Both the position numbers and the translations under genes were made by a program. A DNA stretch of 64,000 bases from Scleroderma bovista (lineage: Eukaryota; Basidiomycota; Agaricomycetes; Boletales; Sclerodermataceae): assembly GCA_037178675.1 (NCBI GenBank), contig JAYMGJ010000019.1, forward strand, positions 23,210 to 87,209. Direction: 5' to 3'. The notes below the pieces were generated by a model. It worked only from the letters and a program-made list of their open reading frames with translations. It had not been told where the DNA came from and did not search any database. Of the stretch, positions 3,778 to 46,384 are shown in pieces. Numbering within the stretch: the stretch's first letter is position 1; each line of letters opens with the position of its first letter.

Positions 3778-3936
3778 AGACAGTATTGATGTTCTAACGT
3801 CTGATTCATAGTACCTTAGTCCATGTGAACACCAGTGCTGCACTTCGTTAACTTACCAGCCATTGGATCAGATTCAAAAGCAATATCTGAACGCGAATGC
3901 GCCAGTACTTGAGATATACCAATTATTACATAAGAA

Positions 3937-8888: not shown

Positions 8889-9079
8889 AGAAGTACTGCG
8901 GCGTCCGAGTGGCTGTCCACTTCTTATGTAATAATTGGTATATCTCAAGTACTGGCGCATTCGCGTTCAGATATTGCTTTTGAATCTGATCCAATGGCTG
9001 GTAAGTTAACGAAGTGCAGCACTGGTGTTCACATGGACTAAGGTACTATGAATCAGATGTTAGAACATCAATACTGTCT

Positions 9080-9617: not shown

Positions 9618-9816
9618 CAACGATAATTAGGTACAAGACATCCCGAAGTGAATAGCTTCGGAGCATGTGGTATTTGGTGAGTCAATGTCGTGTAATCACT
9701 TCCAAATTTTAACTGGATTTTACCTACTCTTTTCTTGTCCCTTTGTTGTACTCGTTTATTCTCCCGCAGTACATAGAAAGTACTTACTTACAGTAAGGAC
9801 ATAGGATATCAGTGTA

Positions 9817-10290
9817 GTTCCCCCAGTTTACTTCTGTGGTTCTGCGGACATCAAAATATCAGTGAAATTTCCCGTGTCAGAGCCCGCTACCACGGTCATC
9901 CTCAGATTCATCTCCTCCGCACGTGTCATATTAAATAACAAGATATGCTACGACATCAAGGACGCCAATCAAATCTACGAGCTGTACTTCTCTCTGCATA
10001 AGCGCGTATACAACCACAAAACCAGTGAGGATGCCATTTCCATGTCAGGGTTGGCAATATGCTGACAGCTTTCGTAGCAAAGGCTGTCGAGTGTACATGA
10101 TACCTGCTTGCTGCTGAACCTTACTTGGAAGCTCACCGTAGACCATGTCGTGGTAGGATGGTCCGTACACTATGGCAGGGGCCCCAATAACCCTCTGAAT
10201 GAAATCACATTCTATTCAAAGCAACAACCAGATGGTAAACTCTTTCAAACGGGTGTTTCCTATCCACGCATTCAGGTCACTCGCAGTGGG
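9817..10290 (+). other. Unrecognised coding-like stretch, right-arm copy
   Basis: Two open stretches on the plus strand: about 9817-10066 (contains VILRFISSARVILNN and ends SMSGLAIC) and 10108-10293 (contains TWKLTVDHVVVGW and GVSYPRIQV). Residue composition looks protein-like and the order suggests exons of one gene, but no family is recognised and no start or splice sites are assigned with confidence. Confidence 0.25.
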
Positions 10291-10295
10291 TCGTA

Positions 10296-11409
10296 AAGCA
10301 GACTACAGCGTCATTTCCTTCTCCATGCCCAGGTCATTTGCAGGAATCCGGATATACACTAAGGAGTGCAAATTCTACAGGCCATGTACCGGCAGATCCT
10401 CAAGATGCTCCGGCCGTCCGATGTGACTCATCCGCATGACGAAGCAGAACAGGAAGACCACAATTTAATGATCAAGATATGGACTCCAAGGACTGGAACA
10501 GAGTCGCCAGGTACACCCAGCTCGTCCTCACATAACGCGAGCCTCGGCTCGCTGGCTGAGCTTCGTGCAGCTGCTGGCCAGTCGACAAGATCATCCGCTC
10601 CCAGGACAGCCCACGGATGCACAGCTTTTTTAGATCTGGCCACACCTTGCGCTTGTGCGTCTCACCCGGTCGTGGACGCTCCTCTACTCTCTTGACCATC
10701 ATGGCATCTCACTGAATACGTTGTACACGTGGTGTGCGTCGTGCATACCGAGTGCATCGGAGCCGAGCCCACCTAAAAGTGCATTGACATAGTCAGCCTG
10801 GCGACACGAATGACCAAAGGCCACCACCATCTAGCCAGCAAAGATGACGACGACCGCCACCACTCCTCATCTGTGCAGCCAGCACGACGACAGCGACAGC
10901 GGCCACTACCATCAGCACTGCAGCTAGCACACTACGATGACGACAACTGCACCATTCCACTAACTCGTTGACGTTGACTTGAAACCAGTGGCACAACGAC
11001 TATGATGCCGATTACCACGATCCCCCAACTTGGCTCCCTACGTGCAGCCAAAACGTTGATGACGGCTGCCACCATACTCCTCCGTCTGCCTCCACTACCG
11101 CCGCCTTCACTTCCTCGGTGCAGCCTTCCGTCCCCCTTCTGTCGCATGGCTCCAGGCAGGCCGGGAGGGGTGCTAGGGTGCATGCTCGACGCGTGCACGT
11201 GGGTTCCACTGCCATCAACATCGCTTGCATGCCAACACTAAGATAACATACGGCCCATACTTGCTGTGAGTCGACCATGTCGCTGACTTATTCTTCACCA
11301 CTCAACTGTGTTTCACGTTCGCTCTCTCGTGGGTATAAACTTCAAATTGGCAAATAGGATTCTGTAGAAACGCACTTCAGTACAGTGACTCTGGTCACGC
11401 GACTGCAAC
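10296..11409. other. Arm interior without a recognised gene
   Basis: It contains GC-rich, low-complexity open frames on both strands (for example runs of TCGTCGTC/GACGACGAC around 10845-10950) and a stretch near 10366-10695 with a serine-rich open frame. No conserved motif was found. It is mirrored in the left arm at 1448-2561. Confidence 0.4.
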
Positions 11410-12341
11410 ATGTCCACGATATCGGCTCAGGTCCACAACTTCAAAGATCCCACCAAAGACCAACCTTTCTATGCATTTTTCTCGATGCATGAATCAACAT
11501 TGATACGATGCTCAAAGGATGGGAAGAAATCCACTTCTTCAGGCGACATTGACAAGATGGTGATTAACGCTGTACTCACACTGGGGGAACCAGGAGTCGA
11601 AGACGCATATGTGAGTTTCCAAGCTTCCGTGCTCTGATGTCCTATCACCAAATATGGCATCTTAGAGATCACCTTTCTTTAGGCTGGTAAACTCCACCTA
11701 ATTCCTCCATATCCCGCGTTCAGCACTAGACCATAAATCGGTTAGATTTACCATACCTCTGTTGACTATCTGACATGTTGAACAGACCAGATACCGCAGG
11801 GAGCTCACCAGATACTCCTAAGCTCGTCGTGATCAAGGATTCATGGAAGGACTACGATCAGAAACGGGAAGATGAAATTTACGCGGAGATCTTTTCTGAC
11901 TTAGAGAAGGCCAAGGGGACCAAGGCGGCAAAGGCAGACATGAAGTATTTCCTCACGACTCACGAAGCAGCAGAGGTAGCAGTGGACGGGAAGAAAGATG
12001 ACATGCATCAATTACTACACTATTCACCACTCCCACAAGATTGTGGTTGGCATGTGATTCCCGCTGATCAGGCTTTGAGTCGGACCCGTCACACATGCAG
12101 TGTAGGATGTCCTCCATCTGACCCTTCCAATTCCTGCCGGGATACCCCATACTCGGCATGCGAGCGAACACTACCGCCGAAATTCCAAGATCATCCGGAC
12201 GAACTCACAACTTTCTTTACTGAGGCACTGCAGGCTGCTACCGCCGTATCGAAGAGCGTAATACTCCACGTACCCGGGAAACATAAAGAGCCGGACCAGG
12301 GTGGTGTGGAGAGTCAACCTAAGAAACGTAGCAAGGTCTAA
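11410..12341 (+). CDS. Possible FunK1-like kinase fragment, right-arm copy
   Basis: Exon 1 starts MSTISAQVHNFKDP (11410) and runs to about 11610. It joins across a GTGAGT...TTTAG intron to AGKLHLIPPYPAFSTRP, then an in-frame TAA. A GTTAG...AACAG intron leads to PDTAGSSPDTPKLVVIKDSW. The VVIKDSW box, followed by a long acidic/basic helix, is the best clue: FunK1 fungal kinases carry a similar box before the kinase core. No HRD-like catalytic loop is visible downstream, so this is at best an N-terminal remnant. The C-terminus ends PKKRSKV. It could equally be an unrelated protein with a chance resemblance. Confidence 0.35.
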
Positions 12342-12856
12342 GGTCACTACTCTCCACGGAGCAAACAAAGGAGAACTCTGGCATGTGTGGCCCGAGAAGG
12401 GGGTGCCTATATATCAGTTAGTGTATCTGGTGTGTCCCCCAAAAATCAGCTTTATGTCTGATCAGATGTGGACAAATATGGGGTGTGACCCTCTAACACA
12501 ATCCTCAACCTATACACTTCGTCATAGAAGAACATAGCAAAAAGACACATTTTCGCCACAGAAAATGGGAAATCCATCACCGAGGTTCTTTCAGTTTAAG
12601 TATCGGCATCCTCTAGTAACTCCCTGGGGAGACCCCTGGAGAGTCACGACATCTTTCATACAGAATGGCCGAAGGAGAGTCTTTTGAATACCTTGGATAG
12701 TAGGCGGGTGGTAGGCAAATCTATTACATCAGGTGTGCCTTGAGGGGCTATGATAGATCTCGAGCAGTGATGGCTCCAGTTCTCTTGTAGCCCTTCAAGG
12801 AATACTCTCACTGAGCAGCGCAGAGCAAACCACTTTGGTAAGTACACCACCACAGT

Positions 12857-12966
12857 GGGTCATAGCATTGTCACCCCAGTCGAGTGCTCAATCCTTGTCT
12901 GCTCATCCGTTCCCTATTCCTCGCACATCTGCAGTCAATGCTTTGTTCACACAAGCTTAACACATA
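12857..12966. other. Gap between inverted-repeat arm and element A
   Basis: 110 bp of sequence with no feature recognised. No target-site duplication for element A is visible between its last bases and those after 28555. Confidence 0.5.
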
Positions 12967-13026
12967 ATGCACCTGCATTGTCCCATACAACACGGACAGA
13001 CGAAGCTGACAATCGGCCGTGCTACA
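12967..13026 (+). repeat. Left terminal inverted repeat of element A
   Basis: It begins ATGCACCTG and ends TGACAATCGGCCGTGCTACA; the latter 20 bp are exactly matched, inverted, at 28497-28516. The following bases (TGACCAGCTGAGATAGGGCCC region) also resemble those after the terminus of element B. Confidence 0.7.
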
Positions 13027-13038
13027 TGACCAGCTGAG

Positions 13039-13362
13039 ATAGGGCCCAGCCATGGTGCATCCCCATGTCATACGAGTGGGCTAATGGTAAGGTGTTTCAC
13101 CATGCCATATTGGTGGCTCATGGAAAGGTTGTCACCAAGTAATATTGGTGGGCTGACACACTAGTACACTAGATCAGGATATGGCCTGTGGCAATAGGAC
13201 CTAATGCGGCAAGGGAGCTGCGGCATGCGGCCAGAGGACTATATGCCGCAGATTCAGGCCGAGGATTGCAGGGGGCTTGCCGCAGCATTTCAGCAAAAGG
13301 ACGGTAGTAAGTGCTGCAATGCGGCTAGCCTGTGGACGGGAGTCAATAGAAGGGCCTCTGTA
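13039..13362. other. Left subterminal region of element A
   Basis: It contains two copies of a TAATATTGGTGG-like word (about 13100 and 13140) that also occurs once in element B near 56875, supporting common ancestry of the two left ends. It is rich in GCGGCA and TGCCGC words. No gene is recognised. Confidence 0.5.
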
Positions 13363-13911
13363 CCAGTGTCCCATGCTTTGCATTTGGCTGTGGTATTGGT
13401 GTCCTGTGCTTTGCATTGGGCTGTACCTTTGGTGTCCCTTTCTTGTTGCAGGGCCAGCCAAAGAAACAGCATCCCGTGCTTTCCAATGGGCTGCATGCAT
13501 GGTGTACCTTTAAGAATACCCAGCCATGGGATTGGTGTCCCATGACTATGAGTAGGCCCTGGAGCCAGTTTCATCTATTATGTGCAGGGCACATGGCAAC
13601 AATAGGTACAATGTCCCATAGCATTAGGTGGGCCCTCAGAAAGGTGTTATCTACCTATATGGGAGGGCCTTGCAGTACACTTCAAAGTGACAGGCTATGA
13701 ATGCGGTGTCCCAGAGCATTAAGCAAGCCCTCCTTCTGGGGACACCTAGCTAGATGGGAAGGCCAGCTGATATGCTTCCCCTTCAGTATGATCGGCCATA
13801 ATGTTTGGCCTCCCAATATACACAGCAGGCCCTTAGAACTATATCCCTTGTATAAATGTAGGGCCGGGCATCTGGTCTTCTCTAAAGTAGCGGTAAGCCA
13901 GGTGTGGCACG
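13363..13911 (+). repeat. Subterminal direct repeat, left copy
   Basis: About 550 bp collinear with 27145-27732 in the same orientation. Shared landmarks in order are CCAGTGTCCC, CTTTGCAT, ATTCCAATGGGCTG, GTACCTTTAAG, GTCCCATAGCATT, GTGTTATCTA, AAAGTGACA, GGTGTCCCAGAG and TGGCACGA. The copies are clearly diverged. Such repeats could be remnants of an internal element or multiple subterminal protein-binding regions. Confidence 0.7.
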
Positions 13912-13931
13912 ACACAATCGGCACTACATGG

Positions 13932-14345
13932 CATTGGCAGAACACACTGTCGGCAGAACAATGCTGTCGGCAGAAGAAGGCTGTCGGCAGAACACACTGT
14001 CGGCAGAACACACTGTCGGCAGAACAAGGCTGTCGGCAGAACACACTGTCGGCAGAACAAGGCTGTCGGCAGAACACACTGTCGGCAGAACAAGGCTGTC
14101 GGCAGAACACACTGTCGGCAGAACAAGGCTGTCAGCAGAACACGTTGTCAGCAGAACAACGCTGTCGGCAGAACAAGGCTGTCGGCAGAACACACTGTCG
14201 GCAGAACAAGGCTGTCAGCAGAACACGTTGTCAGCAGAACAACGCTGGCGGCAGAACAACGCTGGCGGCAGAACACACTGTCGGCAGAACAAGGTTGTCG
14301 GCAGAACAAGGCTGTCGGCAGAACACGACTGTCGGCAGAATTGTT
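13932..14345. repeat. CGGCAGAACA minisatellite
   Basis: About 25 head-to-tail units of 16-17 bp alternating GTCGGCAGAACACACT and GTCGGCAGAACAAGGCT. Some units have CAG in place of CGG, which is the expected product of CpG decay. Because 16+17=33 bp is a multiple of three, all three frames stay open and yield long artefactual open frames. Confidence 0.95.
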
Positions 14346-15143
14346 TTTCGGGCAATGTCGGATTTGAACCGACGACAGCAGTGGCACAACATGTCATCAG
14401 CAATCTACCATCGGCATAATAGAATTGCGGCATTACAAGAACGGCACAACATAAATACTGGTAATGGCTGTGCAGCTATCGCGCAGGTGCCGCAATACCT
14501 TGCCGAGAATCACAAACGTGCTGCAGTAATAGCCGTGCGGCCATCATGCTTGCATGTGCGGCAATATGGGAATGACCGTGCCGTGTGGCAGTGTCGGCAC
14601 GGTTGTGGACACCGGCATTTGCCACTGACATACTGGCCGGTGGCAGCCAGGCTGGTGGCTGTGCGAATAAGTACCGCAATGATAACATTAAATTAATGAT
14701 GGCCGTACCGCAATGACTGACATGCGGCATTGATCCCTTTCTCAAGCTGCGGCTGTGTTAATACATGCCGCATCGATTGTTCCCCGAGAGACACACTCCA
14801 AAATAAGGCAAATCATAATGCCGATCCGAGATCCCTTATTATTGTGATGGGACAATGCACTGTGACAGCCAATCACAAGCAATAGAAACGCGGCCATCAT
14901 GCAATATGAAATGCAGCAGTGTGGTTCATTAGCCGAATTGTCAGGACAATGATTGGTCGGACTTGTGGCTGAATTATTAACCTATATTTGATTTAGTCCA
15001 CTTTGGTGTGCGACCACAATGCAAACATGTTGTGGTGTGAAATGCTTATATAATACGTTGAACATCCTTCAGGCCGCACGGCAATCGGACCCAGTTCTTC
15101 CTCTCAACCACTGCTTTACCATTTCCACATCCTTACAGTCTAT
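14346..15143. other. Noncoding region with CGGCA words upstream of the Zn-cluster gene
   Basis: No gene is recognised. Numerous CGGCA/TGCCG words are scattered here. At 14357-14373 the minus strand holds a perfect tRNA-like T-arm (GTCGG stem, TTCAAAT loop) that matches an RNA polymerase III B box, but no complete tRNA can be folded around it. The last 150 bp form the presumed promoter of the gene starting at 15144. Confidence 0.5.
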
Positions 15144-17110
15144 ATGGAAACTTCAGAAGGTTCTCAGTTCGTCTCCGCCTCATCCGTTCAAGAGGACATG
15201 TCAACGGCTACGTCCCTCACTGCAGAAGAAGTCGTCACCCAGGCCGCTGAAATAATTCAAGGCCGGATTGATGGCTTGAGAAGCACACGGGAGAAGGGTG
15301 TATGGTCGGAAGCAGTGTCAACTATCTGGGCCCAGGTGGTGCGTGGCAAATTTATCTGCAATCAATCAACTCACTGATTAGGATATGATAGCGCCGGGTC
15401 GAGAATGTCCTGCAGGAGTTACCTGCAGGATTCATTATACCGACTATCATCGTTGCTGCCGACCAGTTTATGGAGGCGCCAGAGGTGATCCTGTCGACAG
15501 GGAAGTGGCCTCACTTCCCGGACATCGTTAACGCCACGGACCACGATATCCGGGACCATCCCTGGTTCCAACTAGGCAAGCCGCAGAAGAAGGAGGACAA
15601 GGGAAAGAGGAGAGCGGTAGAGCCGTCGGGGAACAATGCAGTGGCAGGACCATCGGGGGTAAAGGAGACAGAGGTGCACGGCAGTCATGGCCAAGTAGGT
15701 GAGCCCAGTGAAACTGAGGACTCACAAGCAGTGCCAGAAGGAAGCCGTGCCATCGAGGATGATGAGGTGCCTAGGGGCCGCAGTCGCAGTCGCAAGCCGA
15801 GGAAGCGTGCCCAATCCGTCGCAACGATCAACAGCGATGGTGATGATGAAGAAGCCTCATCGCAACCACGGCCAAAGCGACCAAGGCCAAACGTTCGTGA
15901 CATGCAGACACCAGACGCAGGCTATGAGTGGGTGGATGACAAGGATCGCTGCATCAAGTGCGTACAGCGAGATCGACGGTGTGCAGCGAACCCAGGCCGT
16001 GCTTGCTGGCAATGTTGCTGCAGCAAGATTGCATGCAGTATGATGATGGCAGTCAGAGCGAGGTCAAGGTCGCGTTCACAAGCACCGAGGAAACCTGCAC
16101 CGCGTCGGCGTTCACCATCTGCGCCCTCAACGCTCAACTGAGGAAGGTCACAGCATGCAAAAAGCCAACGTCAGACCCCGGCACCAGCAGCGGCCAATCC
16201 GCCCAGGAAACCAAGTAAGTCGTTCATTATTCGAACAATTTAATATTATTTCTAGCGATATTCCATCCAGTTTTTGATGGGGTACTGATCAATACTCCAG
16301 CATGGCTAGGGAAGACATCGAGGACGGCAAGTCCATCGTCAATGGCCGCCGGCAGTGGCACGAACCCTCCCACAACACCGGGAGACAGTACAAATACGTC
16401 GAATGTACAAGATCTCGAGGAGGAGGTTGTCCGTTTGAGGGAAAAGCAGGCCGAAACGGAACGAAAGGTGGACGAAGCGAATGCAAGATTGGCCGTCGCG
16501 CTCGGAGAAGTCGCCAGCTTACGGCAGGTGGTTGAAGCGATGCGGGAACAGCTGTTCCCAACACCATCCCACCTTCAACGTCCGGCATCGCGGCAGGCAT
16601 TCGCACCGACACAGCTGGCATCTGACTCAACATGTCCCGAGGTCTCGCAGTGCGCTCACCCCAGTCCACCAAGCCCGTTGGCACTAGCGCCTACCACAAT
16701 GCTGGAAGAAATGGCATCGTCCAACAATCCGTCCCGACATGGCTCGAGCGAGCCGACCGGCACCCATGGTATGCAGGTTGCGCTGCGCAACAATGCCTCA
16801 AGTCTGGAGGTGGCAACTCCAGGCTTGGTCGATGAAAGGGGTGCCAGCAAGCCAACTGGTGATAGCTACGACTGGGCCCCACCAAAAGGTAAGTCTGTCA
16901 ATTACCAAGCCATGTGCTACTGATCACAAGATTGTGTTATTGACAGCGATTTGTGATGAAGTGGCCGCAACCATAGAGACCGGCAATATTCCAGCAATCG
17001 AGGTCAGCCCGCCGGAAGATGGAGATGTTGGGCCGGCATCCGATATGGAGATTGGGAGTTCCGATGCTGATGCCGGGCATGATGCCGGTGTGCAAATGGA
17101 AACGGACTAA
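15144..17110 (+). CDS. Zn2Cys6-spaced cysteine cluster plus coiled-coil protein of element A
   Basis: Four exons, roughly 15144-15338, 15392-16214, 16265-16889 and 16947-17110. Domain order: a helical N-terminal region (EEVVTQAAEIIQGRIDG), a second conserved block (ELPAGFIIPTIIVAADQF), an RS/basic region (RGRSRSRKPRKR), a cysteine cluster at 15950-16036 with spacing C-x2-C-x6-C-x7-C-x2-C-x6-C, a second RS/basic region, a block FDGVLINTPAWLGK, a long heptad coiled coil (about 16410-16556), then Pro/Ser-rich and acidic tails. The spacing is that of fungal Zn(II)2Cys6 DNA-binding domains, although here it is internal. A homologue with the same blocks, spacing and intron phase is at 58839-60830 in element B. 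A TGA at 16139-16141 interrupts exon 2; either an extra intron is missed or the gene is damaged. A role as a dimeric nuclear DNA-binding protein of the transposon is inferred. Confidence 0.65.
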
Positions 17111-17289
17111 TTTTCTTTTATCATACCTACGTCTTTTGTACAATTTCCGCTTCCTATTCCATGTATACCATATACATCACATTGTAAAGTATATTTATGC
17201 ATGTAGAGTTGTCCTTGTGAATCATTGACACAGCCTGAGAACTCTGTCAGAGACATGCCAGTAATGGTCTCAACCACAGCCATGAATGC

Positions 17290-18060
17290 ATTGCCAATAT
17301 GTCGCCGGCACATCCCAAATTTACCTGTGGAGTAACTTTTCAACGTTACTGATATACATGAATACCAAGAGCAGGCTAGATATGTCCTACAGATGTAACT
17401 ATAATTGCCATGTATGGCGGCATCAAGTATTGGAAGGAGCAACATACTTTTAATCCACTGGCACAACACAATCAGCAGAACATACAAGGGAGAACATACA
17501 CTCGGCACTGCATCAGCACATACAATCGGCATACAATCGGCACAACCACCGGCGGCATTACATCCATGCCGCTGCAACAGTGATCAGCACTTGCATAACA
17601 TTGGCACTTGCAAACCATTCGCACAAGACACTATCGGCACAGCAACATCGGCACAACATACCATCGGCACAACATACCATCGGCACAACATACCATCGGC
17701 ACTACATACCATCGGCACTATACTATCGGCACATCACACTTGTGACACAGCACACTATTGGCACTATGTACATGATACTATCCCAATCTTTCGCCGGCAA
17801 ATGCAAGATTTACCTTTGCAGTAATTCTTCGATGTTACCGATATACATAAATAGCAAGAGTATCTATAATTGCCGTGGATGGCGGCATTAGGTGTTGATT
17901 GAGGTAACATACTGTAATCAGCACAGCATTCCATTGGAACATGCATACGGTAGACAATCGGCACACACCCCAGCGGCAGGACATACATTTGTAATACCAT
18001 CAGCACTTGTATAACATCGGCACTTGCCGATACCTTTGGCACAACACACTATCAGCAAAT
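17290..18060 (+). repeat. Direct duplication and CGGCACAACATACCAT minisatellite
   Basis: Two diverged copies (about 17290-17560 and 17775-18000) share ATTTACC, GTTAC.GATATACAT, AATTGCC.TG.ATGGCGGCAT and CAACATACT-like landmarks. Between them, 17640-17740 holds four to five tandem copies of a 16-bp CGGCACAACATACCAT unit. It lies between two genes of element A and adds another block of CGG-containing repeats. Confidence 0.75.
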
Positions 18061-18176
18061 CTTTCCAGTGGTGAGATAAATGAACTATATATGGAAACCA
18101 TTATTATATAATCATTCAATTGTGATTTCCATTCCACGTCAATTCCATCTTGTCAACTTGCATCTTTGCTACCACT

Positions 18177-19477
18177 ATGCCACCTAAGTCTGTCAGATTT
18201 GATAGCGCAAGTCCGCGGAAATTGAGTGAGTAATTTCTCTCCTCTGAGCTGATCTGCATGACATTGTTATCAGCCATTCCTGCACTGCCAGTGTGGCACC
18301 CGCCTCCATCCATTGTCGATGAACGCCTGCCATCAAGCATGGACTGGATGCCACCCTCTCCCCCACGCCACGGGATGCGCACAGGTGAAACAAATGTGTC
18401 TGTGAGGAACAACGATGCAATGTCTGGGGACAGCAACAGACAAGCAACAGCGGCAAACAATCAGTTGCCAGCCCCCTCGCAATCAGCTCTGATCAACCTC
18501 CCTGGCCCTTCAGCACACGAGATGCGTGCAGCAACCCCCACGACTAGATCCCAGGCTTGGATGCCACCGTCGCCTCCAATCGCTGCCAGTTCATCCAATG
18601 TGCCGTCTACCCTCACCATTCGGTCGCAGGCATCAATGCCACCCCCGGCAGCAATGCCAGCTACCCCATCGGTTCGGCCATCATCCCAAGGCACCCAACC
18701 GCAAGCATGGATGCCACCGTCACCATCCCCCACGATGGCCGCATGGATCCCGCCCTCTCCAGTGCACATGCCACGTATTGGGACGTCATCCCCATCAATG
18801 CCGGCATCCTCAGTCCCGGCATCACCGTCCAGCCCAGCATCACCATCCAGCCCAGCATCGCCATCGCTCCCGGCATCGCCATCCAGCCCGGCATCGCTAT
18901 CTAGCCCAGCATCAAGCCAGCGGATTCCCACCTCCCCAATGGAGGCAGAATCATCTCCTGAGGCTGTATCTGGATCGCATGCACGATTCCGGGAACACGT
19001 GCATGCAGAGGATGGTAAGTCAGTATTACTGCAGGAATTATGTGTATTTAACAATCATCCAGTGGAATATTTTGAGATGGTGGACAGGATTAATGCATTG
19101 CATGAGCATTTGGATCCATTCCAGAGTGATGCGCTTTCATGTAAGTCTCTCTTGGGCTTGATCCATAGTATCAGTTGATCAGTTGTCATCTAGTGGCCTC
19201 TGCAAGGCAAGTTGCTACATCCGTCCCTCCTAGGAACTTGCCCGACCTACTCCCACTCGATGCCGGCCTTGATCACCCTATGATCGCGGCCTACATTCAT
19301 TACGCAAACACGTTGCTCAACACCGCCAGGTTGTGGAGATCGGAAATGTGCCGGAGAGTGATGTTGGCAAATGTGCGGGATATGTTGGCTAGGTCAGCCC
19401 GACTTGGCGAGAATGGTGACATAATTGAGTCCGATCACCCTGAGGATGTGGTAGTATTAGATCCCTCCAAGCTGTAG
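18177..19477 (+). CDS. W-x-P-P repeat protein of element A
   Basis: Four exons starting MPPKSVRFDSASPRK. The large second exon (about 18287-19014) is disordered and repeats a WMPPSP/WIPPSP motif (seen after MD, QA, QA and AA) separated by Ser/Ala/Pro stretches, including a run of SPASPS-type repeats at 18800-18915. The third exon is short (EYFEMVDRINALHEH) and the last is helical (ASARQVATSV, HPMIAAYIHYANTLL, ARLWRSEM) and ends VLDPSKL. A homologue at 61687-63097 keeps the KN/SVRF start, the W-x-PP motifs, the short third exon and the STARQIA/ASARQVA last exon. A scaffold or partner-binding protein of the transposon is a reasonable guess; no enzymatic motif is present. Confidence 0.6.
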
Positions 19478-19557
19478 TTTTGTTACAGTAGTGCGGCAAT
19501 AAAATCTTTCGGCACAAGACATGGCAGATTTGACAATAGCATTATTCTACAAGTATA

Positions 19558-21420
19558 TTATTTGCGGCGTCTCTTTGGGCTGGGCGTAGGGACATCGGCA
19601 TCGGGCCGCTTTGGCCGCCTTCTTTGCCGTTCCGGTTGACTAGGCCCGGCAACGGCATTGACATGTTGAGCCCTGGCAATCCGGCATGTGCTGGCAGCCC
19701 GCTTCCCCTTGCCTCCAGAGTGTGTGGCATCATCATCCCCTGATCGACCACCCTCCATCCCATTTGTGTTGCCAATGGAATGCATAGTTAATTCACCAAC
19801 TATCATTTGTCGGAATTGCTCAAATGGATATTGAAATAGGCAAACTTACATTCCACTGGCGCATCGGCTGTGTTCTTTTTAACCCGGGGCTTTGGCTTCA
19901 TCGGTCCATTAGCATTGACGTTGCCGGGATCCATATGTGCTTTTTCTTATATGAGAATACGTGCCATTTCCAAGTAATTGAGACCAATACCCACCTTGCT
20001 GTTTAGGTTCGGCCGGCTGCCGTGCCATCAGTGCCGCTGATGCTCTTCGTCAAGATGGTCCCACCGGCATAACAAAACCAAGCCCCACGCACCATTTTCC
20101 TTAGCATTATGTCCATCTGAGTCATCCTCTATATATAAACTTCATATTCTGACAACAAAAATATTCAAAGGAACTGACCAGGCTGTTCAATGGGCGTTGT
20201 ATGGCTTGCTGACAGGGATGTTCCAAATGTAGGAGGATCAAATGCTTGGAATACGGATGGGGCGTACCATCATCCTGGTTTGACCGGCATTGGTTTTTGT
20301 TTGTTGCACTGGACTCCCTCTCCTCTGGGGCCTCTTCTTTTATGCATGTCAATGGTTGCATAACATGGTTGAAAGATCCATACCAATTGTGCGCCGCCTC
20401 TTCCGACTGCTTGGGAGTTCCACATCTCGTGCCACAGGTTCTTTGAACCAGTCAAAACAAGTTGATAAAAGTATTCAGAGCTAACCTTTCAGGGGCGGCT
20501 TTGCTGCACTTATCATTCCGGCCACTGAGTCCTCACAATCTGATACTGGATCTTGTAATCCACCATCCATATCTCTCCATTTGTGAAATGTCAGTACATC
20601 TTCCGGATCTGTCACTTGCCTATCGCGCCAGAATTCCAGTACCTTTGTAACTTCCTGATTTGTGAGCCGGGTCGGCTCTTTGAACTCCCAATGCCGCGGC
20701 AGGTACACAGATGAAATGTAGATACCGGTCTTTGCATGTATGGCAGCCCAAGGAACACTTGCACTTGGCTTGCCGCATGCCTTGCCTGCGGCAAGGGGTC
20801 AATTCTCCGTCTATTTACAAGGAAGAACTTATGATAATGCCATGTCACAAAGGTCCTCATAACATCCTTTCTCTCCAATGCTTGCATATCGAGGATGATC
20901 GGAATCATTGGTGTGCCATCTTCCATTGTTGGTAAAACAGTTTGCGGCCTCTTCTGCCCTTTCTTCCGGCAGAGCGTCGGTCCGGCATCTTCATCGCTAT
21001 CATCGTGTTCTTCCCCTCCTATGGCCTGCTGTGCATAGGCATCCCAGTGGTGCTTGATGTCATCCCAATCGGCAAAGGTCTTCCCTTGTCCCAATGCCGA
21101 ATTAAAGTCGTGCCTGTGAATGTGAGTATACAAATACCACAAGTGAGAAGTGACATACATTCCCATCATGGGCTGACCATTCCGGCCCTTCCATGCCGCC
21201 ATCACAACCACCCGCATCCCACACTGCCGCCACATTTCCTGCGCAAACTGTTTGACATATTGTCGGCCTTTTGTCTCGGCCATTCTGTTTGCAGATGAAT
21301 AATTGTCGAGATAACATGTCAAACTTACTCGGCCTGGACCTCTGCCGGCGGCTGCTCCTCGTTCCATTCATCAGCCTGCTTTGCCGCAGCATCCCTTTCC
21401 TCCTAGGTGAGCTTCCCCAT
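19558..21420 (-). CDS. Conserved element gene with MWRQCGMR block and basic tail
   Basis: Multi-exon minus-strand gene convergent with the W-x-P-P gene, 80 bp apart. Blocks in order: EERDAAAKQADEWNEEQPP, then after an intron QYVKQFAQEMWRQCGMRV and VMAAWKGRNGQPMMGM, then HDFNSALGQGKTFADW, an acidic stretch, MIPIILDMQALERK, ISSVYLPRHWEFKEP, and a C-terminus rich in basic residues that ends TPSPKRRRK, a likely nuclear signal. I recognise the architecture as a type of hypothetical protein common in mushroom genomes but know no function. A TAG at 21403-21405 lies just before the first block if the start at 21420 is used, so the real start may be elsewhere. The 5' side abuts the KDZ fragment. Confidence 0.5.
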
Positions 21421-21451
21421 GATGCATCCTACCGCCTTTTGGTAGCCTTTA

Positions 21452-22223
21452 GGCCGCGTCGATGGTGAAATTATGGAGACTCTCTGGTCCTCTCTTAACA
21501 TCATTTTGCCATCGGCCCGCGGAATGGCAACGCCGCATAGACAGGAGCTGCTTGATTTTCAAATGAATGACAACAACTTCTTAAAGATGGTGCGGATGCC
21601 AACGATGCTCTACATGAACTAAGGGTTTCGCTGGCACACAAGGCAGTCATCTTCCGGACCGATGTCAGACATGCCGGGACATACAATATGACTACGAGGG
21701 CCTGGGGGAAGGTGGGTAGTGCCGATGTGAAAGTGCAGCGGCATGCGGCAATATATCGTCGGTGCCGGAAACAAATGATAGCATTGAATGCAAGCGGCAA
21801 CACATTGAACCGATACAAAATGTTGAGGAAAGAAGACCTAAAGATCAGTGCAACCATTGCCGACCCAAATGCAAGGGGTCATAGGGATGACACTTTGGCC
21901 TGGTTTTGGACAATGGATGTGCCGCGGGATACAGAAGTCAATGATTGGATGTCTGAATGTAAGATGATTGCTCCTCATGTTAACACCAGCTGACATGTAT
22001 AGTTTACCGGGTGCATTGGTTGAGGGCGAAAGCATTGCGAGACAGGTGGGACGAAGAGGTAAAACTATTGACATGTGAAGCCACGTGGACAAGACAATTT
22101 CTTTCGTATAGGGAAACACTTTGGAGAGATCAGAAGGAGGAGGCTAATATGAGCAGAGAGATGGGGAGAGCATGCTATGCAGCAAAGCAATGTCAAATGT
22201 ATGGTAGACTTGGTTGTGTATGA
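21452..22223 (+). pseudogene. KDZ transposase, C-terminal fragment
   Basis: KDZ (Kyakuja-Dileera-Zisupton) transposases are DDE-type enzymes of large eukaryotic DNA transposons. The fragment opens RVDGEIMETLWSSLN, matching the DGE..E..W signature around the catalytic glutamate, then ARGMATPHRQELLDFQMND. After an intron or frame shift near 21597 it continues AWGKVGSADVKVQRHAA, AWFWTMDVPRDTEVNDW, an intron of about 44 bp, then VHWLRAKALRDRWDEEV and MSREMGRACYAAKQ. The earlier catalytic aspartates and the Zn-binding N-terminus are absent: sequence before 21452 is the start of an opposing gene. The fragment stops at 22223, a little short of the usual end. It is therefore a dead transposase and element A cannot move by itself. 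Confidence 0.7.
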
Positions 22224-22647
22224 TTGGCATTGACCATCGGCATCAAATACCGCTATATGGTATGCAAAGAGGACATATTTGAAACGGATCATCAAGTGGC
22301 TGTTAGTGGAAAAAACAAGGTGCAACTGCAAGGTATTTATGGGGTGCATACCTTGGAATGAATGGATGATGGAATGGGAGGGTCATGGACAGTGGCACAT
22401 AGATTCGCTGGTAGCCGCAATGGCAAAGCCATGCACCAGCAGCAATTGAATGCCATGCATGAACACCCTTCGGCCAATATGTAAATATAAATCTGCCAAG
22501 GGAAGATGTGCAAACATGGGCCTACCGGCCATGGTCCTCGTAGTTCCACGACTGCTGGAATTGATAACAATCAACTACCGCAGCTAGAAACCATTGTGTG
22601 CCGGTGCAACAGCTAGCTATAACATATGTGCCGTAGTTCACTGCATC
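22224..22647. other. Region without a recognised gene in element A
   Basis: Noncoding sequence between the KDZ fragment and the palindromic minisatellite. Scattered GCCGCA and TGCCG words are present, but no conserved motif, RNA or terminator was found. Confidence 0.5.
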
Positions 22648-23745
22648 AATCATGCTGTTGTGTAGCGGCGTGTCAGGATGTTTCCAGCAGCGTGTGCCGC
22701 AATGATGATGGTGCCGAATTGTTGATTGTGCTGGAATGTTGACTGTGCCGGAATGATGATTGTGCCGAACGGTTGATTGTGCCGGAGGGCTGACTCTGCC
22801 GCAATGTTGAGCCAGAATGGTGATTGTGCCGAAATGATGATTGTGCTGCAGTGTTGGCTCGGCCGCAATGTTGCCTGTGCCAGAGGGTTGAGTGTGCCAG
22901 AGTGTTGACTGGGCCAGACTAATGATGGTGCCGACGGAGTGTTGATTGTGCCGGCCTGTTGACTGCCAGGATGTGGATCCTGCTGGAGTGTTGACTGTGC
23001 CGCAAGGTTGATTGTGCCGGAGTATTGATTGTGCTGGCCTGTCAACATTACAGCAGAGTCAACACTGCGGCACAATCAACCCTCCAGCACAATCACCGTT
23101 CTGGCTCAACATTGTGGCAGAGTCAACCCTGTGGCACAATCAACCATTCAGCACATTCATCATTCCGGCAGATTCAACAGTTCGGCACAATTATAATTCT
23201 GGCAGCGTGAACTAATCTAGCATCAATCATGCTGTTGTGTAGTGGCGTGTCAGGATGCTTCCGGCAATGTGTGCCACAATGATGATAGTGCCGAATTGTT
23301 GATTGTGCCAAACTGTTGACTGTGCCGGAATGATGAATGTGCTGAATGGTTGATTGTGCCACAGGGTTGACTCTGCCACAATGTTGAGCCAGAACGGTGA
23401 TTGTGCCGGAGGGTTGATTGTGCCGCAGTGTTGACTCTGCCATAATGTTGACAGGCCAGCACAATCAATACTCCGGCACAATCAACCTTGCGGCACAGTC
23501 AACACTCCGGCAGGATCCACATCCCGGCAGTCAACAGGTCGGCACAATCAACACTCCGTCGGCACAATCAACACTCTGTCGGCACAATCAACCATTCGGC
23601 ACCATCATCAGTCCGGCCCAGTCAACACTCCAGCCCAATCAACACTCTGGCACAGTCAACACTCCGGCACAGTCAACACTCCGGCACCATTACCAGTCCG
23701 GCACAGTCATCATATGGACCACTCATCGGCGACAGTTTCTCCTCA
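22648..23745. repeat. Nested palindromic minisatellite of GTGCCG/CGGCAC words
   Basis: The sequence is built from 20-25-bp variants of TTGATTGTGCCGGAGTG. It flips orientation so that 22880-23215 is the inverse of 23278-23640, with the axis near 23246 and a loop of about 60 bp. For example, 23012-23075 pairs with 23418-23481 almost exactly. A direct repeat starting CATCAATCATGCTGTTG also occurs at 22648 and 23221. The foldback could form a long hairpin. Arms differ mainly by CG to CA or TG changes. Confidence 0.85.
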
Positions 23746-24138
23746 AGGCTGATGCAACTCGTGTGAGCTTCTCATCATTTTCAGTGTCGACAGGTTCCAT
23801 CTTGATGCGCGTTGGCCGCCCCCGGGAATACTTCTTGCTCTGCCAGTCATGTCCGAGTGAGGGTGCGTGGTGGGCAGTGCTGGAATGCCGATCCTGCCGG
23901 AGTGTTGACTGTGCCGGAATGATGAATGTGCCGCCCTGTTGAATGTTTACACTTGACCAAGCCGGATCATTGTGATCATGCCGGAATCGACTTTGGGCTC
24001 GCCGAGCGGCACTACATCCCATCGGCACAACACACGTTCGGATAGTATCTACTACAAACTACTTCCAACAAATTTGGACTACATACCATCAGAATTACAT
24101 TTTAGTACAACAAACAATCATATCAGGAAGCTAATTAT
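23746..24138. other. Noncoding spacer between the palindrome and the TET/JBP gene
   Basis: A few more CCGGAATG and CGGCAC words occur to about 24025, then AT-richer sequence downstream of the TET/JBP stop codon. No gene is recognised. Confidence 0.5.
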
Positions 24139-25508
24139 TCAATGCTTCACCAGTGCATTGCGGACATTATCTGGCGTCACCCAATCAAGAGGCCGTGGCA
24201 CCCTCAACCAATGGTGAATATTATCCCTCATATAATACGCCAAACAGCACCTCGCTCCGTCAACCTCGTTGACGCCGTGCCGAAAGAGCCGGCTGGAAAA
24301 TGCAACGACAGTGCCGGGATTGTACAATACCTGAATCCCAAGACTGGGAATGTGCAGTGCACAATCATCATAATTACCGACACTGACTAGCATGTCATAC
24401 CAATCTGCTCGAGAGTGTGGGTCCCTGTGGAGGGGGGTACTTCGATTGACAATTAGCGAGATATTGGTGAAGACAGTGGACCAATTTTCAAGTGCCGCCA
24501 GCATTCCGGGATCATGGCCGGTCGCCCAGTCAGTCAAGTGTTGCATGGCAAGGTGGCCGGCATCGTATAGAGGTGGATGGATAATAGAAAGAACACCTGA
24601 AAGTATTGCCGACGGAAGACATATATCCTTGCTCCATTGATAGCCGGTAGGACCGGCCAAAGCCTTGGACACCCCCGGAATGTCATTGGGGGTCTAGCAG
24701 AAGATCAAACAAGTGCATCATCAAAAGAAGGAAGGTACTCACAGAATGGCCGAGCATGTGCCGTGCCGGAGAGAATTCCAAGCACCCGAAAATATCCACG
24801 TCATCCTTGAAATACTGGTGTGTTGTACGCCATGATTGATTAGTAATACTCTCTTCCAGTGGATCTGCAAGTGAATCGATGGATGCCGCGATGTGCTCCT
24901 AGAAACAAAGGCCTCAACAGTGGACAATGAGAGTGGAATGATACCATACTTGGATGCAGGGAGCTAGAGCTCCGGGAAGATACCACAATGCAATTGTGTC
25001 ACCTTCTCCCAGAATAATGGTGGGCCGGGAAAGGGTCCCAGTCAAAGAGGAAGGATGTCTACGGAGGACCCTAATCTCCTGTTGCTCATTTGTTCCGGAT
25101 TGCATTGGTCCGAGGCTTTCAGACAACCTAATCAAGTCAATGCCGCACGAAACTTCAGTGGATATCAAGCAAGGGATAATAGAACTATAAAAGAATTGGC
25201 TCACTCCGATTATGGTATGCCTGTGTGATGGTGGATACAATTTGGTTCATGGCTACAGTTGCGTCCACCGGCAGGGACAGAAGTGTTTCCGGGGTGGGGG
25301 AATTTAAGTCTGGGAATGCTTCATTCAGGAAGCGGCGCCGCATATATGATGCCATGATGTCAGACAAAGTATAGTTGGATGGCACGGCATTTGCACCGGC
25401 CATTGGAAACAGGACGACTTTTGACAATGTGGGGAGTAAAAATTTTAGTGGGGGATGTGCGGCATCCTGCGGACATCTGTTTGCAAACGGCAATGCAACA
25501 CATTCCAT
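24139..25508 (-). CDS. TET/JBP-family 2OG-Fe(II) dioxygenase
   Basis: The family oxidises 5-methylcytosine or thymine in DNA using Fe(II) and 2-oxoglutarate. On the minus strand, exon 1 holds YTLSDIMASYMRRRFLNEAF and LSLPVDATVAMNQIV; exon 2 holds CGIDLIRLSESLG, RRHPSSLTGTLSRPTIILG and GDTIALWYLPGAL; exon 3 holds the EHIAASIDSL and DVDIFGCLEFSPARHMLG blocks; exon 4 holds the catalytic core. There the metal ligands H-R-D (in TPLHRDPHS) and the distal His (LFRHGV) are followed by the arginine of DGARCCLAYYMRD, expected to bind 2-oxoglutarate, and the chain ends RNALVKH. All exons join by short introns and no stop interrupts the core, so the enzyme may be active. A second open frame upstream (25360-25581) is rich in Cys and may encode a missed N-terminal exon. 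KDZ elements of mushrooms are known to associate with such genes. Confidence 0.72.
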
Positions 25509-25678
25509 TCTCGGCTAGATCCACTAAACAAGGCTGATCGGCGATTGGCCGGTGCGAAACAACACATGCCCGGTTGCACAATGTGGTAATTATGCATCAG
25601 GTGACATGTGGACCGTGAGAACATTGATTACCTGAATGTTATAAGGCTTAGGGCGAATCGGCCATCACACCATCAATC
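25509..25678. promoter_or_regulatory. Divergent promoter region
   Basis: About 170 bp separate the start of the TET/JBP gene (-) from the start of the small gene at 25679 (+). The two genes probably share control sequences here. No TATA box is obvious, and part of this interval may be coding for a longer TET/JBP N-terminus. Confidence 0.35.
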
Positions 25679-26463
25679 ATGAATACCACATCCGAACTGC
25701 ACGAAACCTGTGAACTGTCCATGGTATTGCAATACGTTGGAGTCCGCTTTCGACAGATGGTGCACGCGGTTCAACAACAGCCCGAGGGGATGCTGGCCAC
25801 AGCTGAATGGTATGCAAACGTACAAACGGAAGTGGTAAGTGGAGAATGATTACATTTGATTAACACACTCATGAGCCCCCAGGCAAATTTAGAACGTGTG
25901 CTTGCCGCATGCCAGGCTATGGGTGCGAAGATGATATTGCCAATGATGGCGAGCAGGGTGCACAGAATGGTCGTACTAGAAGATCTGCCGCTGGCAAGAC
26001 TGTATGCGGCAATGCAGCAGTTGAACGTCTATCATGCGAAGGCCGCCGAAGTCCAGGTTCCAAGTACGCTTCAAGTGGCAAACTCGTGGTGGGTAAATGG
26101 CCACGGCCCATGTACGGCAGGGTACAGCACGCGGCCGCTGCGGGACATGGTATCGGAGGCAGAGGCATTCTTTCTGCCGGACCTGGTATGCTCCCTTATC
26201 CGTGTTGTGTTAGATACTAAAGCTTTTCCAAGGTTGCTGATAGAAAGGTCACCATTCTACTCACCGTTGGGTATACCTCCGACGAGGCCTTGTCAAATGC
26301 ACGGTACTTCTGCGACAATATGTTGCGGAGCTCAGACAATGCCCTCAAATATCATATAGAGGTGATGCAGCATTGTGCAAAAAGGATGGAGGACATTGAG
26401 ATGCTAACCCGTGCACCAAATGCATTGCGGCAGAAATGGGAGGAGTCTTTGGGTGGTAGGTAA
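25679..26463 (+). CDS. Small unrecognised helical protein of element A
   Basis: Three exons joined by GT-AG introns: MNTTSELHETCELSMVLQYV... (25679-25834), ANLERVLAACQAMGAKM... (about 25883-26185) and VADRKVTILLTVGYTSDEAL... (about 26233-26463), ending WEESLGGR. The exons join in frame and no stop interrupts them. The protein, about 230 residues, looks alpha-helical with no known motif. It is divergently arranged with the TET/JBP gene, so the two may be co-expressed. Its codons contain many GCCGC and CGGCA words like the rest of element A. Confidence 0.5.
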
Positions 26464-27144
26464 ACATTGTATGAATACCTACATATATGTTCATCACAAC
26501 AATAATTGGTTAATCAAATATCGGCCAAAGCGACACATGTGATATAATGTTGCCGGCCAAAGTCTGAGCTGCGGCTGCAACACCCGGCCAGGTTAACAAT
26601 GAGGCAGAAATCACACAGGGAACACATCGGCATGAATGGGAATAGCACATGTCTGGGTGGAGGTGTCGTCCGCATCTTCCAATACAATGGGTGCCGCAAG
26701 TTGATACCTTATGCCGGTCGTCAAGTTTGCGGCTGTGATGGCTGTAACCAATCATGGCTGGGCGGCAGTGGTGGCCTCCACTATGACAAGTACAGCCGCG
26801 GTATCACGGCAAAAGAAAGGTATGCCACAGCAATGCGGCCAGAGAACCAGGGATAGCCGCTGCTGCCGAAGGACTGTTAGCAGCATGGCGGCCAAAGCAG
26901 CAGGGTAGCCATGGAATTGTGGCCAAGGGGCTAGAAGTAGCAGAGTAGGCCCCGCCTCCTGCAGTTCCCAAGGCACGCCGCTAAAGTGGTGTCACACAAT
27001 GTGTCAAGCCCCATATGATGGTGTCCCATGATTACATAACAGCCCCAGGTGCCGTATCATCTATAAGAGCAGGAGGCCCTGGATATAGTGTTCTCTATTC
27101 TATTATAGAGCCCAACAAATAGGAGTGAGTAGGAGGGCTGCAGT
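26464..27144. other. Right interior of element A without a recognised gene
   Basis: Noncoding sequence with many GCCGC, GCGGC and CGGCA words (for example 26755-26990). Open frames here are short and on both strands. Homology with the left subterminal block begins at about 27145. Confidence 0.5.
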
Positions 27145-27732
27145 GCCAGTGTCCCGTGCTTTGCATCAGGCCCTAAATATGGTTTGCCATTTCTGTTGGC
27201 AGGCCAGAGGAATAGTGTGTTTCGGGCTTTGATCAGGCTGTAACAACAGAGTCCCTTTCTTACCAAAGGGCCATGGAACTATTGTCCCTTGCATTCCAAT
27301 GGGCTGTGCAGAGACTGTACCTTTAAGGGGTGCTAGCCACAGGTGTGGTGTCCCATAACTCTGGGCAAGCCCTGGAGACAGCGTCATTTATAGTCAGTGC
27401 GCCCAGCTCAGTCTGACAGGCAATGGCCATGGTATCCCATAGCATTGGGCAGGCCCTAGCAGAGGTGTTATCTAGCTATGCAGGCAAACCTTGCAAGTAC
27501 ATTTTAAAGTGACAAGCCATGAATGGGGTGTCCCAGAGGATTAAACAAGCCCTCAATGTGGGAACAACTATATAGTTGGGAAGGCATGTGGATAGGTGTC
27601 CCATTGAGTGCGTTGGGCCACAAAGTTGATCTCCCTGTATACCCATTAGGCCCTAGATATTATGTCCTCTATATAGATGTATCGCCGTGCATATAGTGTT
27701 AAGTAACTACCGTTAGGCCAAGATCTGGCACG
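27145..27732 (+). repeat. Subterminal direct repeat, right copy
   Basis: Collinear with 13363-13911 and in the same orientation; see that entry for shared landmarks. It lies just inside the right minisatellite, as the left copy lies just inside the left one. Confidence 0.7.
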
Positions 27733-27769
27733 AGGAACCGTCAGCACTAAATTGATGCAGCAATAGATG

Positions 27770-27905
27770 CGGCCAACACATAACACCTGGCACCACATAT
27801 CGTCGGCACCACATATCAGCGGCACCACATATCAGCGGCACCACATATCAGCGGCACTGCATATCAGCGGCACAACATCTCATCGGCACATCATCTCGTT
27901 GAACA
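27770..27905. repeat. CGGCACCACATATCAG minisatellite
   Basis: Six or seven tandem copies of a 16-18-bp unit, CGGCACCACATATCAG, with CGGCACAACATCTCAT-like variants at the right. It mirrors the position of the 13.9-kb minisatellite next to the other subterminal repeat. Confidence 0.85.
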
Positions 27906-27928
27906 TGCCGGAGTGTTGACTTTGCCGC

Positions 27929-28196
27929 TGTAGAGACAGTCCTGTCTCTAGGTGTAGAATTGGTAGTACTGATACTGGACTCTTACCTTAGCTATGTAGG
28001 CTTGTACTTAGCTTACTAAGCAACTTCCCTCTTTCCTCTGTATATGTTTGATCTCAGTCCTGGAGTGACTGAACACCTCTACTCTCCCTACTTCCTCTAG
28101 TCTCCCCAGTCCCTGGGAGCTCTGCCAGACCTCCAGAAGCCCCTGGGTCGAGCGTGCCTCACCTGAGGCAGCAGCAACACCCAACCCCCCCCTACA
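27929..28196 (+). mobile_element. Solo LTR inserted in element A
   Basis: It begins TGTAGAGACAG and ends TACA, so it has TG...CA ends, and is flanked by CCGC (27925-27928) and CCGC (28197-28200), a 4-bp target-site duplication. Removing it restores the local GACTTTGCCGCACTG motif. The first 20 bp contain the hairpin AGAGACAG-TC-CTGTCTCT. An inverted relative interrupts the copia copy at 53362-53641. No coding sequence is present, so it is a solo LTR or a very small LTR-like element. Confidence 0.75.
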
Positions 28197-28496
28197 CCGC
28201 ACTGTTGACCATGCCGCAATGCTGATTGACCGGCTCACTATGGTGTTATTGCTGCCGTCAGATTTCACCCCACTGCCTCCATTGCATACTGGCTCACTTA
28301 TTCTATTGGTATGCTACTCCTCTCAGCCTGAGTATTTTCATGACGACACCCATTTGTCCGGCTTAAGACTTTCACCCTACCCCGTGATGACAACAGAGCC
28401 ATGGGCCCACCGTTGTCACTTGGTGACAATGCTGTCGGGGGCTGACCCCTGTGATACGGCAAAGCTCTAGTCATAAGCCTCACTTCCGCCAGCCCG

Positions 28497-28555
28497 TGTA
28501 GCACGGCCGATTGTCATCGTCCGCTGACCGTATAACACGGCCTACCCAGGTGCAT
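28497..28555 (-). repeat. Right terminal inverted repeat of element A
   Basis: On the minus strand it reads ATGCACCTGGGTAGGCCGT, then a variable part, then TGACAATCGGCCGTGCTACA. The GTAGGCCGT portion is closer to the element B terminus (TTAGGCCGT) than to the left end of A, which has diverged there. Confidence 0.7.
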
Positions 28556-29819
28556 GGGCTCAGCTTAAGCGGTATGTCACATTGGAAAGAGCTTCAATAT
28601 TGTGTCCTGACGCACAAATTCAGGACAATCGATGCCAATATCATGATTGAACTTGACATTCGTGTTGGCAATACAGGTAATATAGTTCCATCACAGTTCC
28701 TGTTTTGGGAAACTTGGTACATATCTGCCACACCTTCATGACCTTCGGAGGACAAATGGTGTGCAATCTACGTGATTGAGTATTCAGCGCTCAGTGTTGA
28801 TGTTATTGATAGCGTTCCACCAAATCCTTGCTTTTGAAAATGCGAAGAACATCATTGTATTACAGGGTTTAAGTAAACAAAATTCTCACCCACCATGGTG
28901 GTTACTTGCTTTCCTATTTTCTCAAAGTGCTTGTCAGGGTGGCCCAATATCAGCCATCTGCAAGTGCCCTGGATGCATCCCTCGAAACCATTGTGGGTCA
29001 GGATGGCAGCACCATCAATTGTGAAGCTGGTACCATAAAGGGGGTGAACTGACTATAGGTAAGTGCCCGACTGCTAGCCATTGCACTGATCATGGTAATG
29101 AAGCGCAACAGTAATGTATGCTGTCAAATCGTTATTCTCACAAATGACTGTCCACACTCTAGAGGTTTGTTGGCCTGAGATGCGTATGGCATCCCCGCGT
29201 GCTTTGCGGCATCCCACAATGTCCTTTTGTCTTTATGGAGAGGTAGTGATTTGTTTTCGAGCTTTGAATGTTTGATTTACAGCTTCAGTTCACGGCTGCA
29301 GCCCATTTACATTCCAAGAAAACTCTACTCACTGATGCCATTGATTAAGTCGGTTGCTGTGTGTACTGACCGTGGCACTGTAATCGTTGATCCCCAAAAG
29401 GGAAGATAATTGTTTTGAATTATTTCTCTTTATTGCTCACCAGTTCTATGCAGCATGACGAAACCAGTCATTGCAGTCGTTCCAGACTTCACTGGCGCCT
29501 CCTCAAAGTCAAATATGACAGACCTGGAGGCTCACTATGAGAACACCTGCCCACTTGGGCATATTCGATACAATGCATCTGAGTTGATGGCCATAAATGA
29601 CAGTAAGCTATTCTAAAGTCAATGTATGCATGATAGAGATCTTTGTCTAGCCATGAGTACTAGATGTTACACCACGACGGATGGTAAACCTTCCCCATGA
29701 CTCCAACTTCATCTGATGGGAGATCGAGGCAAGTTCCTTACTCCGCACATCGCATGTTCTTCTGTTTTCCTCCGAGTTCATTGAAGTAAGGGATACGCGG
29801 ACTGGGAGACTTGATCAAG
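28556..29819 (+). other. Region of unrecognised exon-like fragments
   Basis: Several short open stretches with plausible intron borders occur on the plus strand: MSHWKELQYCVLTHKF (about 28572), a block DASLETIVGQDGSTIN (about 28970), and MTKPVIAVVPDFTG (29456). Together they may be remains of one multi-exon gene, but no family is recognised and no continuous model was made. Confidence 0.25.
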
Positions 29820-31016: not shown

Positions 31017-31304
31017 TGTTGGAGCAATACCTATCTATGTAGAGGAACTGCTACTCCTGCTCACCTGTTGTGTGGAGGGGACAAGCTGAGATGATAGTGG
31101 TAGCTGGTCAAGAGCTGTTATATTATGTAAGCGATGTCCGCTGTTTATATACAACAAATAGTGTGACACATGACTGTGACATGTGACATGTGACATGTAA
31201 CATCTACTCTAAAGAGGACTATTACTAAGTCTACACTAATATGGGTCGCAGTCTTGTGTGCACTTCATTGACGGTTTACGCCGGGTGCATGTGCGACTTC
31301 AACA
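31017..31304 (-). mobile_element. Solo copia LTR
   Basis: 288 bp, starting TGTTGGAGCAATACC and ending CTTCAACA, inverted relative to the LTRs of the copia element at 40808. It is flanked by GCGAG (31012-31016) and GTGAG (31305-31309), a 5-bp target duplication that differs only by a C-to-T change at a CpG. A paralogous empty site lacking the LTR is visible at about 31635-31690. It formed by recombination between the two LTRs of a lost element. Confidence 0.85.
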
Positions 31305-46350: not shown

Positions 46351-46384
46351 CACCTTATTCGCTGAAGTGCTCTACATGCAGCAC

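Follow-up and report, generated by a model that had tools for sequence, protein, structure and literature searches.

A 64,000-bp stretch of the Scleroderma bovista genome (contig JAYMGJ010000019.1, positions 23,210 to 87,209; C19:23210-87209 in our contig numbering and hereafter the window) contains a transposon at 12961–28561 (15,601 bp, forward strand) derived from a six-gene element that encodes a KDZ transposase, a TET/JBP dioxygenase, and the four companions A/B, C, D/E, and H. The four companions are a conserved module across the TET element families of this genome, and the tandem arrays differ between two of these families, one having a CGGCA core and the other a CCGCGG core. The reality of the element and its module is close to certain, as is its membership of the KDZ class, and it probably belongs to the Kyakuja lineage. 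Our tentative interpretation is that of a six-gene KDZ transposon, most probably Kyakuja, with a self-recognising anti-silencing system. As far as limited searches show, the conserved six-gene set and the family-differing arrays are undescribed; TET+ KDZ elements as a kind are already known.

Ends, copies, and gene content of the element

The assembly searched comprised 51.8 Mb in 850 contigs. Genome searches with the window's left and right 84 bp returned numerous copies bounded by the same termini, as a preliminary description of this DNA had anticipated; all of those examined (the best 40 of 104 candidates for the left end and the best 40 of 95 for the right end) were 98–100% identical to the query. 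From the listed end matches, 13 paired copies were built, including the window copy, and the real number may be higher. These ranged from 8.6 to 26.5 kb, with 10 of the 13 exceeding 18 kb (18.5 kb or more), and their main blocks aligned to the window copy at ~92–99% identity. Because all 13 pairs shared six further bases on each side (CACATA on the left and GGGCTC on the right), we set the ends at 12961 and 28561; the unit proposed earlier (12967–28555) was thus a genuine element, placed 6 bp short on each side. The left end (12961–13050, forward strand) begins with CACATAATGCACCTG, and the right end (28472–28561, reverse strand) closes with CAGGTGCATGGGCTC. The two ends are asymmetric and share, in inverted orientation, ATGCACCTG close to the tip and a subterminal stretch of 35 bp (86% identity), so that the earlier term "terminal inverted repeats" applies to these parts and is generous for the ends as a whole. 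A subterminal direct repeat of ~450 bp (71% identity) was also present.

The window copy is flanked by a perfect 7-bp target-site duplication, AGCTTAA, at 12954–12960 and 28562–28568. Exact 7-bp duplications, for which the chance expectation at a single pair is ~6e-5, flanked five of the 13 pairs (the window copy on C19 and those on C727, C342, C216, and C1) and were absent around the other eight, which could reflect recombination between copies or assembly joins. Gene models with short GT-AG introns were made in the 18.6-kb copy on C727, which has a duplication, and were then mapped to the window. In 10 of the 13 paired copies, coverage of the modelled exons reached 89% or more for each of the six genes; the exceptions were the window copy and those on C131 and C1. 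The forecast that full-length copies would carry a complete KDZ gene, the same cargo, and a target-site duplication therefore held for gene content in these 10 pairs and for the duplication in only five pairs. Two stretches of the C727 copy, 2,895 and 773 bp long, have no counterpart in the window copy, which has thereby lost part of D/E and most of KDZ. The window copy is a two-step internal deletion derivative, non-autonomous, that would need transposase from another copy, and it represents a single transposon instead of the composite element first envisaged. A stretch of ~270 bp (27928–28197), seen as an alignment gap in the 12 other paired copies, is a later insertion; it is 83.5% identical to 53381–53644, its ends read TG..CA, a 4-bp duplication may flank it, and it looks like a solo long terminal repeat (LTR).

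The KDZ domain was identified in the C727 copy (PF18758, E = 1.3e-29). In the window copy, only remnants are kept at 21450–22146 (forward strand), where the transposase remnant noticed earlier resolved into a 150-bp core piece (21450–21599) joined to a 3′ part (21598 to ~22146). The TET/JBP gene was likewise confirmed by a match to PF12851 (E = 1.1e-17), with the catalytic exon at 24139–24693 (reverse strand) open in the window copy. The C727 TET matched the same profile (E = 4.7e-18), aligned to Coprinopsis CcTET (E = 1e-29), and retained the metal-binding HxD, the second His, the Asp at position 337 of CcTET, and a Ser at position 331. These are the residues that Kojima (2025; PMC12730594) names for AG-type TET, in which position 331 may be Gly or Ser. 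At least 149 matches above the cut-off were found in a genome search for the TET family, in which 150 matches were scored.

Kojima (2025) describes TET+ Kyakuja transposons from Agaricomycetes, states that Boletales have only TET+ Kyakuja, and gives target-site duplications of 7 bp for Kyakuja and 8 bp for Zisupton and Dileera; it reports CA..TG termini for two Laccaria families as a description, not stated as a defining feature. The present element resembles these TET+ Kyakuja in its KDZ transposase, AG-type TET, 7-bp duplication, 5′ CA, and lack of long terminal inverted repeats. It differs in its 3′ terminus (5′ CA and 3′ TC rather than TG in all 13 paired copies) and in having four more genes in fixed order and family-differing arrays, which the portion of the paper that we read does not describe for Kyakuja. 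Because of the 3′ TC, we filed the element as KDZ, probably Kyakuja. The statement that KDZ–TET/JBP associations are known in mushrooms was well founded, and the element fits the TET+ Kyakuja of Kojima (2025) in all but the 3′ terminus.

Companion genes as a conserved module

A/B (15144–17107, forward strand; exons 15144–15338, 15392–16214, 16301–16888, and 16947–17107) encodes a zinc-cluster-like and coiled-coil protein and contains one in-frame stop in the window copy. The Zn2Cys6 consensus spacing is C-x2-C-x6-C-x5-12-C-x2-C-x6-8-C. The cysteine spacing of A/B fits this consensus and is identical in three families, and the predicted fold matched zinc-cluster regulators (Pho7, Leu3, and GAL4) weakly, with a coiled coil downstream. 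A/B looks like a GAL4-type zinc-cluster protein in cysteine spacing, the weak predicted-fold match, and the downstream coiled coil, and differs from these regulators in being transposon-encoded and in matching no zinc-cluster Pfam profile. Weak Pfam matches to Syntaphilin and YscO sit on the coiled coil and were set aside. C (18177–19474, forward strand; exons 18177–18225, 18274–19140, and 19194–19474) encodes a proline-rich W-x-P-P protein with a conserved C-terminal exon. H (25871–26460, forward strand; exons 25871–26185 and 26233–26460, the second less sure) encodes a small protein and lies head to head with TET.

D/E (19561–21451, reverse strand) comprises exons at 21329–21451 (truncated), 21159–21284, 20833–21113, and 20484–20785 and a tail at 19561–19845; the window copy lacks exon 1 and some of exon 2 through deletion. 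Its introns are supported by a second family and by Scleroderma and Pisolithus database proteins that align across them. The gene model ends before the tail, which was assigned by analogy: because relatives of D/E end in a similar tail, the basic stretch at 19561–19845 (PKRRRK) most likely forms the final exon of the gene at 20484–21451. The preliminary description was accordingly right in seeing companion genes and probably mistaken in counting this basic tail as a protein of its own. An HMG-like fold was predicted for residues 82–151 of the Scleroderma relative of D/E, a likeness to HMG-box proteins such as SOX, Abf2, and TFAM, from which D/E differs in its extra parts and basic tail and in lacking a Pfam match (no family for the C727 protein and no HMG among the 18 families listed for 25 relatives). 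Foldseek matches, the best of which had an E-value of 0.22 and many of which were to MEF2 at a root mean square deviation of 10 or more, were not used. D/E, predicted to be HMG-like, probably corresponds to the protein that Iyer et al. (2014) reportedly described as a "divergent HMG". The earlier view that the companions are undescribed as a module consequently stands for the six-gene set and probably not for this HMG-like member.

In the protein database, we found 28 relatives of D/E, 27 of them from Scleroderma, Pisolithus, and Melanogaster, 16 relatives of H, and three of A/B, two of which were from Scleroderma citrinum (best 7,992 candidates scored). Limited literature searches found no paper with a title or abstract on the companion genes.

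Within this one genome, searches with single companions revealed diverged relatives at amino-acid identities of 29–49% (D), 28–37% (H), 26–45% (A), and 29–41% (E), and the last exon of C revealed 47 diverged loci at 30–39%. A first result that confined C to one family was withdrawn, as the proline-rich exon used as the query had misled the search. A TET match within 25 kb or a KDZ match within 15 kb accompanied all 54 diverged H loci, 55 of 69 D loci, 54 of 67 E loci, and 39 of 57 A loci; the loci lacking such a listed neighbour (0, 14, 13, and 18, respectively) give upper bounds on isolation, as there may be more TET and KDZ matches than those listed. At 43 of its 47 loci, C had A, D, or E no more than 12 kb away, and three had no listed neighbour. 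Some of the remaining loci sat in A-C-D-E clusters for which no TET or KDZ was listed (C59, C30, C137, and C712). At least four of the seven markers were present in 53 of 134 clusters, and the recurrent order in the other TET families was A− C+ D− E− KDZ+ H− TET, with D/E and KDZ forming a conserved head-to-head pair. Exceptions were few and occurred mainly at adjoining elements (C59, C305, C380, and C463). The family of the window element departs from the commonest order by inversion of A/B and of the H–TET pair. The fixed cargo proposed earlier thus recurs at 26–49% identity in one order across TET element families, and the companions, as far as visible, are not ordinary host genes, since their relatives lie mostly near TET or KDZ.

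Codon comparison of C727 with C441 in A/B and D/E indicated protein-level constraint, although the segments compared had been picked because they align as protein. Ratios of nonsynonymous to synonymous polymorphism within the family were rejected as proof of selection because the ratios obtained from noncoding stretches and in shifted frames fell in the same range (0.24 upward) and because CpG transitions made up 289 of the 390 variant alleles across six coding alignments.

The right end of the window holds a piece of a second element, which belongs to a different TET-type family, begins near 56728 with a similar terminus as its left end, and runs past the window end at 64000. It carries A/B (59010–60956, reverse strand), C (61842–63094, forward strand), and a D/E tail-like exon (63650–64000, reverse strand); its TET and KDZ lie outside the window, and no further TET or KDZ was found among the matches listed for contig C19. 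Elsewhere in the genome, TET occurred beside KDZ with no diverged companion listed at C324:19166, C127:117822, C252:25437, and C74:26095 (TET frame of 178 amino acids), where the element may be of a simpler kind or its companions may have diverged beyond detection.

Family-specific arrays and the proposed self-recognition

Four tandem arrays were detected in the window element by Tandem Repeats Finder (TRF). Array 1 (13936–14340, forward strand) consists of 16–17-bp units with a CGGCAGAACA core, array 2 (17614–17733, forward strand) of 16-bp CGGCACAACATACCAT units, and array 4 (27777–27889, forward strand) of 16-bp CGGCACCACATATCAG units. Array 3 (22693–23946), between KDZ and TET, was delimited by repeat search and TRF, and consists of 17-bp units of CGGCACAATCAACACTC and its inverse; it contains a 290-bp inverted repeat (22915–23204 and 23289–23578, 93% identity), which would give a long hairpin RNA if read through. 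The flanks differ among the four arrays, which share the single core CGGCA at 16–17-bp units. CGGCA occurred 192 times in the element against 36 expected, with none of 100 shuffles exceeding 50, and 38 times elsewhere in the window against 52 expected. A pattern of two cores at 16–17-bp spacing matched the genome 633 times and its reversal 0 times; the 100 places listed lay on 13 contigs, all of which, by eye, carried genes or ends of the window family. The array of the second element (57165–57569) is built of 20-bp units with CCGCGG, which forms 21 palindromic sites in that whole piece, and shows no excess of CGGCA. Its 25-base pattern matched the genome 37 times (reversal, 0), 33 of them on contigs that also hold A, C, or KDZ loci of such elements and four on C784, where no gene was listed.

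CpG decay was measured over 12 aligned copies. C-to-T changes affected 5.0% of CpG cytosines and 0.29% of other cytosines, a 17-fold excess that fits CpG methylation of the elements, under which an anti-silencing enzyme would be useful. The loss per copy varied from 1.1% (C556) to 25.7% (C177), and such uneven decay might be used to clock age or methylation.

As to how a TET carried by a mushroom transposon would act on its own family, Kojima (2025; PMC12730594) speculates on non-specific action. In line with that source, TET is likely an anti-silencing factor: the host would methylate CpGs of the element, and TET would oxidise the resulting 5-methylcytosine. GAL4-type zinc clusters bind CGG triplets. 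For this reason we tie A/B to the arrays, and suppose that CGG triplets in the arrays of each family are bound by the zinc cluster of that family's A/B, with the coiled coil serving for pairing, and that array-bound A/B marks the element for TET or the transposase. D/E may bend DNA as the ends come together, and C and H may be partners. That A/B reads the arrays to direct TET, by analogy with known systems, is a possibility on which we place limited weight, and we are equally cautious about its extension, in which each family demethylates itself with its own zinc-cluster protein, arrays, and TET, together with the HMG-like protein and two partners, and spares other families. Zinc-cluster protein and array would then co-evolve, as in VANC systems though from unrelated parts. 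According to PMC5735166, plant VANDAL/VANC is similar in having an element-encoded DNA-binding protein (here predicted), a short motif in noncoding tandem arrays, and a family-dependent motif, the latter two of which were found here for two element families. VANC has no TET and no known homology to the mushroom proteins, for which binding is predicted only. If correct, the proposal would provide a second, independent case of sequence-specific transposon anti-silencing and a natural TET-targeting pair; in any case, a zinc-cluster-like companion and family-differing arrays make TET targeting directly and cheaply testable.

Weighing against such targeting, the arrays were not spared CpG decay: three array stretches, in which repeats align badly, showed 4.0, 6.7, and 8.7% compared with 4.2–5.2% in genes, and TET action at arrays or promoters should have protected them from decay, a protection that was looked for and not found. 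The lack of sparing also suits an explanation of the arrays as neutral tandem expansions with no binding protein and with companions in unrelated roles, given that the noncoding parts of transposons often contain tandem repeats and that any array would yield an excess over shuffles. This explanation is unlikely, however, because four arrays with different flanks share one CGGCA core, with no excess outside the element. Host passengers held together only because the copies are recent, as the ~92–99% identity of the main blocks might suggest, are very improbable and already contradicted by the recurrence of the same genes in the same order in families at 26–49% identity with signs of constraint.

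The same six-gene transposon might instead use A/B to coat subterminal and internal arrays and D/E to bend DNA in pairing the ends, with TET acting separately and with no choice of sequence. A comparable role is reported for the plant En/Spm TnpA, from another transposase class without TET, which is said to recognise subterminal motif repeats and to influence both methylation and transposition. Such a transposition role, which we rate as rather doubtful, would accord with the arrays near both ends and with the head-to-head D/E–KDZ pair, which suggests joint expression with the transposase. It would conform less well to the CGGCA densities of the C727 copy, which were 20.5 and 21.5 per kb in the A/B–C and KDZ–TET stretches and 13.8 and 10.6 per kb towards the ends (leaving out an 86-bp C–D/E stretch with two sites). 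According to PMC12730594, transposons of other kinds in Coprinopsis likewise bear oxidised methylcytosine, which favours TET action of this unselective kind.

Other features of the window

An inverted pair of 3,971 bp (1–3971 and 8886–12856; 99.95% identity) ends ~100 bp to the left of the element and is a very recent duplication, a transposition, or an assembly feature. A Copia-type LTR retrotransposon with 289-bp terminal repeats is located at 40808–46681, with a related inverted partial copy at 53116–56249 and a solitary repeat at 31017–31305.

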